The notes beneath the pieces were generated by a model that made no database searches, was not told the DNA's origin, and saw nothing but the letters and a program-made list of their open reading frames with translations. A DNA stretch of 38,152 nucleotides from Desulfuromonas sp. (GTDB lineage Bacteria > Desulfobacterota > Desulfuromonadia > Desulfuromonadales > Desulfuromonadaceae): NCBI GenBank assembly GCA_021162745.1, contig JAGGYC010000132.1, positions 1 through 38,152 on the forward strand, written 5' to 3'. The translations under genes and the position numbers were made by a program. Positions 2,836 to 11,849 of this stretch are shown piece by piece (position 1 is the stretch's first letter; the number at the start of each line of letters is the position of its first letter).

Positions 2836-2851
2836 TGGCTTGAAAGTGGCT
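2836..2851 (+). promoter_or_regulatory. Possible sigma-54-type promoter of the repeat-protein operon
   Basis: TGGCTTGAAAGTGGCT has the GG-N10-GC spacing needed for sigma-54 (GG at 2837-2838, GC at 2849-2850), and the implied start site lies about 45 bases before the ATG at 2907. The match outside those four bases is modest, and the site is also part of a short direct repeat of GTGGCTTGA, so it could be coincidental. Confidence 0.35.
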
Positions 2852-2906
2852 TGAAAAAAGGGGATTGAATGTGGAATTCAATTCATAAAATTTTATGGAG
2901 GTTGTA

Positions 2907-3512
2907 ATGAAAAAAAGTATTGCTGTTGTGACAGGTATGTTGGTTGTTTTGGCTGGTTCAGCTTATGCTCAATCAGAAGTAAAAGGGGCTATTCTTAACA
3001 ATTCAAATGTGAAGAATGCCGCTAATATTGCTATTGGAACAGCTAACAAGGCCAAGGTTGGTTCCATTGGGGTTAAAAATTCATCGATCCAGGGTGCGGT
3101 ATTGAATAACTCCAACGTTAAGAATGCTGCCAACATCGCCATCGGTACAGCCAACAAGGCTAACATGGGTTCGGTAAACATTCAGGGTTCTGCCGTCAAG
3201 GGCGCGGTACTGAATAACTCCAACGTTAAGAATGCTGCCAACATCGCCATCGGTACAGCTAACAAGGCCAACATGGGTTCGGTAAACATTCAGGGTTCTG
3301 CGGTTAAGGGCGCGGTACTGAATAACTCCAACGTTAAGAATGCTGCCAACATCGCCATCGGTGTGGGAAATACGGCTAACATGGGTTCGGTAAACATTCA
3401 GGGTGCCAATATCCACGGTGCGGTATTGAATAACTCCAATGTCAAGAACGCTGCCAATATCGCTATTGGCGTAGGCAATGAAGCCAACATGGGTTCTATC
3501 GTTGTCGAGTAA
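2907..3512 (+). CDS. Secreted protein of five 36-residue Asn/Ala-rich repeats (possible fibre subunit)
   Basis: A 201-residue exported protein. A Sec signal peptide (MKKSIAVVTGMLVVLAGSAYA) is followed by five tandem units built on GAxLNNSNVKNAANIAIG, then xxNxAxxGSxxI. There are no cysteines or aromatics in the repeats, and Asn, Ala, Gly and beta-branched residues alternate as in beta-solenoid or functional-amyloid proteins. I do not recognise a named family. ATG 2907 is chosen over an upstream in-frame ATG because GGAGG lies five bases before it. It is the first gene of a five-gene cluster with a CsgG-like lipoprotein, so a role as the secreted surface subunit, by analogy with curlin, is inferred. 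It ends in IVVE, similar to the end of its small partner (QVVE). Confidence 0.8.
   Translation: MKKSIAVVTGMLVVLAGSAYAQSEVKGAILNNSNVKNAANIAIGTANKAKVGSIGVKNSSIQGAVLNNSNVKNAANIAIGTANKANMGSVNIQGSAVKGAVLNNSNVKNAANIAIGTANKANMGSVNIQGSAVKGAVLNNSNVKNAANIAIGVGNTANMGSVNIQGANIHGAVLNNSNVKNAANIAIGVGNEANMGSIVVE
2985..3509 (+). repeat. Five in-frame 108-bp coding repeats
   Basis: Units begin at 2985, 3093, 3201, 3309 and 3417, each 108 bases (36 codons), the last one short. Units 2, 3 and 4 are nearly identical in DNA. Unit 1 encodes almost the same peptide core with many different synonymous codons, and unit 5 is intermediate. This points to protein-level selection on the core plus recent duplication or gene conversion in the middle. 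Confidence 0.95.
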
Positions 3513-3533
3513 ACGCTAATTTGTAGAGTTAAG

Positions 3534-3577
3534 TCCCCTTGGATGCTTTAGCATCCAAGGGGATTTTCTTTATCTTT
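3534..3577 (+). terminator. Strong hairpin after the repeat-protein gene (terminator or attenuator)
   Basis: A perfect 13-bp stem, TCCCCTTGGATGC and its complement around the loop TTTA, is followed by the T-rich stretch TTTTCTTTATCTTT. It sits between the first and second genes of the surface operon. It probably makes the repeat protein more abundant than the downstream export genes by partial termination or by protecting the mRNA end. Confidence 0.7.
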
Positions 3578-3589
3578 GTGGAGGGTGCA

Positions 3590-3922
3590 TTGAAGACAAT
3601 CAGCGTTGTATTCACGTTACTGTTTGTGCTGGCGTTTTCTTCATTAGTGGTTGCCGGTGACCTCGATGATGGAATTTCCAAGTTTACGGATGACAGTATC
3701 TCTAAATGGGATGATCTGGGCAAGAAAGAGCGCAACGTCAATTATATTAAACTCAATGCACGTAGTCAGGCTGATGTTCGTTCAAATGGCAGTGGCGCGG
3801 TGCAGGGGGGCAGTGGTGGTGGCAACATGAACAGTGTCGTTCTCGGTGCCGGTGGAACGATTCGTGGTGATGTGATCATTATTGATGACAGTAGGGGTGA
3901 TAAGACTCAGGTGGTCGAGTAG
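3590..3922 (+). CDS. Small exported protein of the surface-repeat operon
   Basis: About 110 residues, with a Sec signal peptide (KTISVVFTLLFVLAFSSLVVAG) and a mature part holding a charged N-terminal stretch, a Ser/Gly-rich linker (SNGSGAVQGGSGGGN) and a hydrophobic NSVVLGAGGTIRGDVIII segment. It ends in QVVE, echoing the IVVE end of the repeat protein. The TTG at 3590 is preferred because GGAGGG sits four bases upstream and the codon opens a clean signal peptide; longer in-frame starts would run through the terminator-like hairpin. By position it may be a nucleator or anchor subunit like CsgB or HfaA, but I see no family signature. Confidence 0.65.
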   Translation: MKTISVVFTLLFVLAFSSLVVAGDLDDGISKFTDDSISKWDDLGKKERNVNYIKLNARSQADVRSNGSGAVQGGSGGGNMNSVVLGAGGTIRGDVIIIDDSRGDKTQVVE

Positions 3923-3968
3923 GCAGCCGTGCTGTCATTTGGCATATCACCTGCGATGAGGAGTGACG

Positions 3969-5288
3969 ATGAACTTCAGAAAAACGTATGAATCTAAACT
4001 GTATTTCGTGCTGCAAATGGGACTGGCGTTTTGCCTGACCGTGTTGCTGGCTTCCTGTGCCGCCGTAGATCCGGGCAAAGTTGATGTTGAGTTGAAAAAA
4101 ACTGCACCTAAAATAAAGGTGACCACGTACTCACAGGCATTGTCCGATCTCGGTTTGATGTCGGAGATCTATGCCACTGGTTCACTGAAGATTCAAAGTA
4201 ACCCCATTGGTGACAACACTGGAACGGCACAGTCCACGGGGGGCGAGATTCCGCGGGATATTACCGAGATGATCAAGAGTTCGCTGAACTCCATTGGCGG
4301 TAACATCACCTTTATCCCTTATGATCCTGCCTATATGCAGAATCAAATGGTCACGGGGTATTCAAATTTCGAAAATAAACTGATCCCCGATGTCGTGATC
4401 AGTGGTGGCATCACTGAGTTTGACCGCGGACTTGAGACTCGTGGCGAAAATACCGATGTTGGTGCTGAGGCTGAATTTACCGGTATGAAGGATTGGTTGC
4501 CATCGAAACGAGTTTCCGTCGATTATGGTTCCAGTTCTAAAGATGGTTTGGCCCGCATTACTCTTGATTTCAATCTGCTTGATTTTAGAACCATGGCCGG
4601 CATTGCCAAAATGAATACTGTTAACAGTATGGAAGTGGCTAAGGCGATGGGCAATAAAGAGCTGGGCATAACCATTTTTGGTCCGACTTTTGGCCGTAAG
4701 GGCTCGATCAAGAAAGTACAGGGACGTCATGCTGCTGTTCGACTGTTGGTCGAATTGAGTATGATTCAGATCGTCGGTAAACATCTGGTAATGCCGTACT
4801 GGCGTCTGCTCGGTGATGAAAATGAGCCTGACAATATCGTTATTACGGCCCTGCAACGAAGTTATTACAACTTGAGTGAACAACAGCGCACGGCCATGGT
4901 GCAAGAATGGTTATACCTGCATGGATATGATGTTGATGTGACGGGTAGTATCGGTACACAGACGGTCGCGGCCATGCAAAACTTTGAGCCAACATTTGAT
5001 GGCAGTCATTCGATCTCTGTTGACTCATTTATTGAGATCTATACGACCATTCCCATTGATGAAAAAACATTGGGTCGGCGTAACCAGCTTTATCGGATAG
5101 GACAGCAGGCGAGTGCGGTCAATCCTGTGGTTGTTGCTCCTCAAGTACAACAGGTTGAGGTTGTAGAACAGGTCGCACAGGCGGCACCTGTGGTACAGGT
5201 GGCAGCTTCGCAAGCAGCTCCGGCGCCGGTGGCTGCGCCCGTAGTGAAAAAAGGTATTGGTCGTATTCTTAGTGATGAAGAATGGTAG
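3969..5288 (+). CDS. CsgG/HfaB-like outer-membrane lipoprotein with peptidoglycan-binding-like module
   Basis: A 439-residue lipoprotein. The signal peptide ends in the lipobox LLASC with the lipidated Cys at residue 30. Residues about 55-285 follow the CsgG plan: an early strand (YATGSLKIQ), a hydrophobic core, the PDVVISGGITEFDRG strand, a Gly/Asp-rich insertion, and the RITLDFNLLDFRTMAGIA strand, comparable to the CsgG segment ending in STGEIL. Residues about 302-345 (WLYLHGYDVDVTGSIGTQTVAAMQNF) look like a PG_binding_1 repeat. A Pro/Ala/Val/Gln-rich tail follows. GAGGAG lies five bases before ATG 3969. The likely role is an outer-membrane export channel for the two small exported proteins upstream. 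The CsgG link is by pattern, not alignment. Confidence 0.65.
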   Translation: MNFRKTYESKLYFVLQMGLAFCLTVLLASCAAVDPGKVDVELKKTAPKIKVTTYSQALSDLGLMSEIYATGSLKIQSNPIGDNTGTAQSTGGEIPRDITEMIKSSLNSIGGNITFIPYDPAYMQNQMVTGYSNFENKLIPDVVISGGITEFDRGLETRGENTDVGAEAEFTGMKDWLPSKRVSVDYGSSSKDGLARITLDFNLLDFRTMAGIAKMNTVNSMEVAKAMGNKELGITIFGPTFGRKGSIKKVQGRHAAVRLLVELSMIQIVGKHLVMPYWRLLGDENEPDNIVITALQRSYYNLSEQQRTAMVQEWLYLHGYDVDVTGSIGTQTVAAMQNFEPTFDGSHSISVDSFIEIYTTIPIDEKTLGRRNQLYRIGQQASAVNPVVVAPQVQQVEVVEQVAQAAPVVQVAASQAAPAPVAAPVVKKGIGRILSDEEW

Positions 5289-5307
5289 CCAAAATTAGGA
5301 GGATTGT

Positions 5308-6045
5308 ATGAAGCTACTGATAAAATGTTTGGGGGTTATCGTACTCCTTTCGCTACTGGTCGGTGTCTCACCATCCTGGGCAGGAAATAAACGGATTATG
5401 TCGATTCGTGCGGCCAAAGTACTCGCTGAACGAGCCCTGGTTGAGTCGGTTTATGGCTTGAAGTTGCGTGCGACTGAATCTGTTGAAAATATGGTTGCGG
5501 CCAGCTTTGAAGGTTCGACAGAATCGAAGACCAAGGCGTTGATCAAGGGGATAAAGTTTGAAGATGTCGTTTACGACGAGCCGTCGGATATTGCCAAAGT
5601 GACGGCGATTATCAGTCTGCCCAGTATTACAAACATCGATGGTCAAACTGTGGATCTCCACAATAAGGTGTTTCGTCGGGTCGCTTTTGCGACCTCAACT
5701 CCGTCTCAGGCCGGGCCTTTGATGGCTATGCGTGCTGCTGAGCTGGACGCCTACAAGCAGATGATTAAACAGGTTGTTGGTTTTCAACTGGAAAGTGAAA
5801 CCAGTGTTGAAAATTACATGCTTAAAAGTGATACGGTGAAGACGAAGGTGATGGCGACCATTTTCATGGCTGAACTTGTTGAATATGGTTGGGATGATTA
5901 CGGTGATGCCTTTGTGATAATGCAGCTGAATCTTTCTGAAGTTGGCTCCATGCTCGGTGAGCCGGTACAGTCTGCAGAGGAATTTGTTCAGGTTGAAGGA
6001 CAAGGTTCTCAGGCCGATGACTTTAAAGAGGCACAAAGTTCCTGA
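5308..6045 (+). CDS. Exported protein with two LPP20/FlgT-N-like domains
   Basis: A 245-residue protein with a signal peptide ending SPSWAG. It has an internal duplication. Residues about 30-115 (SIRAAKVLAERALVESVYG, then VENMV and DIAKVTAII) and about 130-215 (AMRAAELDAYKQMIKQVVG, then VENYM and DAFVIMQLNL) repeat the same pattern. AxRAA-A---L-E-V-G is the hallmark of the LPP20 (PF02169) and FlgT N-terminal fold used by envelope and flagellar accessory proteins. AGGAGG precedes the ATG, 19 bases after the CsgG-like gene. It probably assists the lipoprotein as a periplasmic factor; this is inferred from co-location. Confidence 0.65.
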   Translation: MKLLIKCLGVIVLLSLLVGVSPSWAGNKRIMSIRAAKVLAERALVESVYGLKLRATESVENMVAASFEGSTESKTKALIKGIKFEDVVYDEPSDIAKVTAIISLPSITNIDGQTVDLHNKVFRRVAFATSTPSQAGPLMAMRAAELDAYKQMIKQVVGFQLESETSVENYMLKSDTVKTKVMATIFMAELVEYGWDDYGDAFVIMQLNLSEVGSMLGEPVQSAEEFVQVEGQGSQADDFKEAQSS

Positions 6046-6075
6046 TGCGTATCTGTAAAATAGGGGAGATTGACC

Positions 6076-6354
6076 ATGAATAAGCGATTACCCTGGATCC
6101 TCGTCGGAATATTATCGACGGTGTTAATGCTGTTTCTCTTAGGAGCTACCGACATCAGCGCACCAAACTATGGACGCTACCAGCTGTCATCGTGGAGCAC
6201 CGATATCGGTGGAGACCGTGCCGCTGTTGGGGCTTTTATCATCGATACGGCAACGGGTGAAACGAAAACTGCTTATACCCGAATTCTCGATGTTAAGGGA
6301 ACTGGGATTATCTTGAAGAATGACTTAAAGACAACATTCCATTCCATTAAATAG
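6076..6354 (+). CDS. Small membrane-anchored or exported protein
   Basis: 92 residues. One N-terminal hydrophobic segment (LPWILVGILSTVLMLFLLGA) is followed by a small domain with YGRYQLSSW and GAFIIDTATGETK, a motif seen in many short uncharacterised bacterial proteins. The domain is inferred to be periplasmic. ATG 6076 is chosen over TTG 6070 because GGGGAGA lies six bases before it. It closes the surface operon and is followed by a terminator. Function unknown. Confidence 0.65.
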   Translation: MNKRLPWILVGILSTVLMLFLLGATDISAPNYGRYQLSSWSTDIGGDRAAVGAFIIDTATGETKTAYTRILDVKGTGIILKNDLKTTFHSIK

Positions 6355-6373
6355 TTGATAGATGTACAGATTT

Positions 6374-6406
6374 TAAAAAGGCCCATCGGATGATGGGCCT
6401 TTTTTA
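6374..6406. terminator. Bidirectional terminator between the surface operon and copA
   Basis: AAAAAGGCCCATC, a short loop, GATGGGCCTTTTTT. The A-run on the left and T-run on the right let it act on both strands, ending the plus-strand operon and the minus-strand ATPase gene. Confidence 0.9.
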
Positions 6407-11094: not shown

Positions 11095-11849
11095 ATGTTA
11101 CTCGGCATAAACCGCAATAGTCTATATTACCAAGTTAGAGAGAACCACAAAAAAGCATCAAAAAACGCATCGTAGAGATATTTGAAGAAATTCCCATCTA
11201 CGGTGCAGCCAAAGTACATCAACAGCTACTCGAAGACGGCTTCGACGTAAGCTTAAACACCGTGGCAAGCTATCGGCAACAATTCGGTTTCAAGGCAGTT
11301 TTGGCGGTAAAACCAGTCACCACCACCCCGATTGAAGAGCATAAAAAGCATAGTTACAAATTACGAGGGCTAGATATAACACACGTCAATCAAGTATGGA
11401 GCACCGATATCACCTACATAAAAACAAATGACGGCATGGTCTACTTAGCCGCCATAATAGACTGGTATTCCAAGGCCGTACTATCATACAAAATATCCAA
11501 TACAATGGATAGCTCCCTGGTCATGACGGTACTAGATCAAGCCCTCTCCAACCATACAGCACCAGAAATATTTAACACCGATCAAGGAAGCCAATATACC
11601 AGCGAAATTCACACAAAACGCCTTAAAGACAAAGGGATCACCATCTCCATGGATGGCAAAGGCAGTGCAAAATGTGAACGAATCTATCTCAATGAATACG
11701 CTACCATTGCCGAATTGAAGGCAGACGTTGCTGATTATATAGATTTTTATAACAACAAAAGGTCCCATGAAACACTGGGCTACCAGAAACCCATGAATGT
11801 GTATAACGAAGGCATTTTAATGGTTAAATCAATGGATGACGCTGCCTAG
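11095..11849 (+). pseudogene. IS3-family orfB transposase, frameshifted and missing its catalytic Glu
   Basis: Reading from ATG 11095 gives LLGINRNSLYYQVRENHKKAS, then a stop at 11173. Adding one A to the six-A run at 11160-11165 restores KKRIVEIFEEIPIYGAAKVHQQLL and the open frame to 11849. The DDE residues WSTDITY and NTDQGSQYTS are present. However GKGSAK is joined directly to CERIYLNEY, losing roughly 15 residues that normally contain the catalytic Glu (DNxxxERxWRSLKY). The integrase core is otherwise typical. The enzyme must be inactive. Confidence 0.88.

Follow-up and report, generated by a model that had tools for sequence, protein, structure and literature searches.

Does a five-gene cluster in a Desulfuromonas genome encode a surface fiber together with its own exporter, and does it belong to one of the described fiber systems? 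The cluster lies in a 38,152-nucleotide stretch of DNA, referred to here as the window, which is contig 151 of a 2.9 Mb genome (contig JAGGYC010000132.1 of assembly GCA_021162745.1). From the sequence alone, an original prediction proposed a secreted protein of five near-identical 36-residue Asn/Ala-rich repeats, a tiny exported partner with a similar C-terminus (VVE), a CsgG-like lipoprotein with a peptidoglycan (PG)-binding-type module, a duplicated LPP20-like exported protein and a small membrane-anchored protein, with the logic of curli or HfaA/HfaB. These genes were indeed found as described, except that the shared VVE ending of g1 and g2 is not kept in relatives. The cluster follows glnB and glnA on the plus strand and lies between two terminator-like hairpins read from the sequence, one after glnA (about 2676-2712) and the other at about 6377-6406. 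Its features, with signal and membrane sequences judged by eye, are the following:

2907-3512 (+), g1: exported repeat protein of 201 aa, the putative fiber subunit; a signal peptide followed, from residue 26, by five tandem 36-aa units (2982-3089, 3090-3197, 3198-3305, 3306-3413 and 3414-3509), the fifth four residues short
3531-3566 (+): hairpin of 16 pairs with a T-rich tail between g1 and g2, a possible attenuator
3590-3922 (+), g2: small exported protein of 110 aa, read from a TTG start after GGAGG; candidate nucleator or pore adaptor, a role inferred
3969-5288 (+), g3: lipoprotein of 439 aa with lipobox LASC30 followed by Ala; a CsgG-like putative exporter domain (about residues 45-290), a PG-binding-like module (about 290-380), an Ala/Pro-rich linker and a conserved IGRxLxxxEW tail
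5308-6045 (+), g4: exported protein with two LPP20-like halves
6076-6354 (+), g5: small protein of 92 aa with an N-terminal hydrophobic membrane anchor

Units 2, 3 and 4 of g1 are almost identical also in DNA, units 1 and 5 less so, which suggests recent duplication or conversion of units. In g3, the residue after Cys30 is Ala, which by the usual rule directs a lipoprotein to the outer membrane. The LPP20 match of g4 scores 27.8 bits, over a cutoff of 25.9, and its two halves align with each other at E 3e-7. Both g4 and g5 are conserved, g5 in many relatives, but no family match was found for g5. The PG-binding match in g3 is below the Pfam cutoff (19.8 against 24.6 bits) but recurs in relatives, with PG_binding_1 in 6 and PG_binding_3 in 3 of 26.

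The relationship of g3 to CsgG was examined by sequence, by predicted structure and by profile comparison. In a single-sequence Pfam search the match is weak and below the curated cutoff (12.4 against 20.8 bits), and among 26 relatives 10 show it, with a best E of 2.8e-4. An AF2 model was built from a 26-sequence alignment (mean pLDDT 67.8), in which the core is good, but the expected barrel hairpins (155-192 and 226-231) and the tail are of low confidence. When this model was compared with the PDB by Foldseek, CsgG or curli-complex chains filled all but one of the 23 places at E<=0.001, the exception being one FlgT (best E 1.1e-5, probability 1.00). VIA gave Z scores of 13.6 and 13.3 to CsgG, ahead of FlgT (11.0) and PelC (10.3). 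A profile-profile comparison with a CsgG family alignment from the same class gave P 2.6e-6, whereas g4 and DUF2807 profiles used as controls gave 0.46 and 0.38. Adding E. coli CsgG gave 7.2e-6 and revealed a shared D-x-T-G, and the segment GGITEFDRG...ARITLDF aligns with CsgG. The loop of g3 is about five residues shorter where CsgG carries the Tyr51/Asn55/Phe56 constriction (PMC6957492), which g3 lacks. Two relatives, one of them Geomonas, have TPRs at the C-terminus instead of the IGRxLxxxEW tail (g3 orthologues at loci L018, 7965-9560, and L025, 7971-9593; L and G numbers denote loci and genomes in our collection). The host genome also has a second, unlinked CsgG-domain protein (56 bits; G000:C75:7277-7555, locus L001).

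The g1 repeat is predicted by AF2 to form a regular β-solenoid, with several short strands per unit repeating in register with the 36-residue period (mean pLDDT 91.8, about 97 in the repeats). That one unit makes one coil is read from the strand pattern rather than from coordinates, and the model may owe its confidence to the near-identical repeats. Across 129 distinct units from related loci G2, N6, N15, G19 and A24 are invariant, although the unit model that collected them favors such units. The best PDB match by Foldseek E-value is the functional amyloid FapC (E 2.9e-3), a weak hit with probability 0.11 and TM 0.10. The core of FapC has been given as GN-Psi-G-Psi-N-Psi-a-a-G-x-g-N-q-Q-N-Psi (PMC12392863), which is resembled by the N[VIL]AxGxxN found in every g1 unit; g1 has N-I-A-I-G-x-(A/G)-N-x-A-N-M. 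However, the minimal Fap repeat G-x4-N-x3-G-x6-N (PMC3792158) is absent from g1, a profile search with the repeat against PDB sequences finds no FapC or curlin, and no sequence link of g1 to CsgA/CsgB was found. The resemblance to FapC may be convergence. VIA with the g1 model gave general β-helix matches, the best with Z 10.0 to a putative IgA1 protease, a shape too common to interpret.

The neighborhood is conserved in sediment bacteria of several phyla. A scan with the single g3 sequence found nothing, but the g3 alignment retrieved 26 loci in named genomes. In all 23 with enough sequence upstream a g1-type ORF precedes g2, and g2 precedes g3 (in locus L039 only weakly). Most then carry one or more of a further small exported gene (“mid”), g4, g5 and a gene for a DUF2807 adhesin-head protein (117.9 bits), the last in many relatives, and several have an upstream gene (“up”) and a second, larger repeat protein. 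The names of these genomes cover Thermodesulfobacteriota, Nitrospirota, Campylobacterota and a Myxococcota-labelled MAG, although some MAG labels may be wrong; the Nitrospirota g3 proteins form one group (100/99). Relatives of the same family and order as the host carry the cluster. Among 395 genomes of the host’s phylum, six have a strong g3 and five have g1, all five among the six (P 8e-11). In the sixth, genome G417, two Asn/Ala-rich repeat frames lie directly upstream of g2. Within the host’s genus the cluster is patchy, being found in 2 of 10 genomes. Hairpins comparable to that at 3531-3566 stand at the same place in about half of the relatives. The larger repeat protein (474-976 aa), found upstream of g1 in loci L021 (3984-6149), L024 (3224-6154), L033 (3978-6182), L034 (704-2128) and L042 (3871-6153), ends in SNKNSVV or SNKNSVI plus two residues and is possibly a tip or length-determining subunit. 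Although g2 can be placed consistently as a partial g1 repeat, the scores are mostly no better than those of shuffles, and this is a suggestion only.

The cluster was then compared with the described systems one by one. Curli has in common with it a CsgG-fold lipoprotein exporter, an exported tandem-repeat subunit with a recurring G-x-x-N-x-A and small exported partner genes, but the g1 unit has 36 residues instead of about 20, and the cluster adds the PG-binding-like module, LPP20 and other genes. Searches of twelve operon-bearing genomes found no curlin repeat (PF07012), CsgE or CsgF, while the E. coli controls were detected. The curlin pattern S-x5-Q-x-G-x2-N-x-A-x5-Q is absent from g1, and g2 does not match CsgE or CsgF; a CsgE hit at E 0.0037 in one g1 relative was judged a repeat artefact. 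The Hfa holdfast anchor of Caulobacter also places a CsgG-like exporter next to small and large exported proteins. However, g3 scores 11.8 bits against an HfaB equivalog cutoff of 300 (NF037935), no HfaB family match was found in the twelve genomes, while the Caulobacter control was detected, the g1 subunit is a regular tandem of 36-aa units, no holdfast genes were recognized and there are extra conserved genes. A bridge between g3 and HfaB is provided by the most distant g3 relative examined closely (locus L016, G119:C35, 4278-9621, in a genome of the same order), which sits between a 103-aa HfaA-like protein and a 1008-aa HfaD-like repeat protein that also carries tandem VAKAVDPQAIDKR-type repeats. 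The g3 profile matches this relative at P 9.3e-11, and it hits NCBIfam HfaB at E 1e-4. Its HfaA-like neighbor gives a weak match to the g1 unit model (8.2 bits), above all 200 shuffles, in this single Hfa-like locus. The Fap system of Pseudomonas (FapC/FapB) has repeats of similar length (38-39 residues) with a similar N-Psi-A-x-G-x-x-N core, and FapC, with its Greek-key layer fold, forms one layer per repeat; g1 has no linkers between its units, and the putative exporter here is CsgG-like. In the open-licence papers searched, no description of this cluster was found.

We consider a dedicated secretion system for a surface fiber the best explanation, with a probability of about 0.7. In this view, Sec exports g1 to the periplasm, and g3, an outer-membrane lipoprotein related to CsgG and HfaB, would form a ring-shaped pore through which unfolded g1 passes, its C-terminal module tying the pore to peptidoglycan. 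Each 36-residue unit of g1 would form one coil of a β-solenoid that could stack end to end into an amyloid-like fiber. The small partner g2 is perhaps a nucleator or pore adaptor, g4 a periplasmic ring or gating partner, and the hairpin between g1 and g2 may attenuate transcription, so that subunit output exceeds that of the machinery. The analysis itself establishes the gene content, the repeats, the CsgG homology and fold of g3 (the latter from a predicted model), the conserved synteny and the co-occurrence, whereas Sec export, the membrane pore, passage of g1 across the outer membrane, polymerization, amyloid character, tethering to peptidoglycan and all partner roles are inferred from sequence and models, without experiment. 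The original interpretation is partly supported: none of the three outcomes named in advance as contradicting it (no CsgG fold in the lipoprotein, a repeat fold unrelated to solenoid or amyloid, no conserved neighborhood) was observed, and the curli/Hfa comparison is right as an analogy; the cluster works most like curli or Hfa but is a member of neither as tested, while the VVE link between g1 and g2 is not supported.

Other readings appear less likely. An Hfa-like anchor, in which g1 multimers exported by g3 form short surface assemblies that tether a polysaccharide or another adhesin, is unlikely but draws support from the L016 locus and from Caulobacter, where HfaA and HfaD depend on HfaB for outer-membrane targeting and surface location, anchor the holdfast, and HfaA forms heat- and SDS-resistant multimers (PMC6707917). 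No polysaccharide synthesis or export genes were recognized beside the cluster in the window, however, and the repeat proteins of up to about 26 units in some relatives suit fibers better. Still less likely, g3 could be a ring protein of the FlgT, PelC or TolB kind without a transport pore, and g1 a solenoid that stays in the envelope as a periplasmic or outer-membrane scaffold; these proteins share the fold core and rank below CsgG in the VIA comparison, and LPP20 proteins such as g4 reportedly occur in flagellar basal structures (PMC12222027, listed for LPP20). Nevertheless, CsgG is the best match by both aligners, the two insertions where CsgG has its membrane hairpins are present, though poorly modelled, and the strict link to an exported repeat protein fits a substrate. 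That g1 is a pentapeptide-repeat or ice-binding-like solenoid with a soluble function, merely co-transcribed with its neighbors, is very unlikely: the profile finds pentapeptide-repeat structures at E 3e-7 to 2e-4, but the matches of g1 to PF00805 and PF13599 (14.7 and 20.4 bits against 20.2 and 38) are below the curated cutoffs, 36 is not a multiple of five and the linkage with the putative exporter is conserved.

Distinctive features of this apparently undescribed system are a CsgG-type putative exporter without the aromatic constriction, a PG-binding-like module, a 36-residue subunit repeat and LPP20 and other accessory genes. A further possibility, about as likely as not, is that these are fibers of a distinct class of bacterial functional amyloid, built of 36-residue solenoid layers and delivered by a peptidoglycan-tied CsgG-type pore without the aromatic constriction, with its own conserved accessory proteins, in sediment bacteria of several phyla. 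Curli and Fap are the two well-studied functional-amyloid export routes in Gram-negative bacteria, and surveys built on their models (PMC3521004, PMC12822426) would probably miss this one. If the cluster is what it appears to be, it adds another subunit architecture on a CsgG-type pore, suggests how such an exporter can be fixed to the cell wall and gives biofilm-matrix candidates for sulfur- and metal-cycling sediment bacteria. It would also offer a CsgG-like pore with a different constriction; CsgG is used as a nanopore.

Apparently another CsgG-like export arrangement is found at loci L084 (3498-7627) and L085 (5703-9901), where g3-like exporters lie beside small exported proteins, a 660-730 aa protein and an ABC transporter. 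In the window itself, an ORF of 195 aa at 11262-11849 reads, as judged by eye, like part of an IS3-type transposase.
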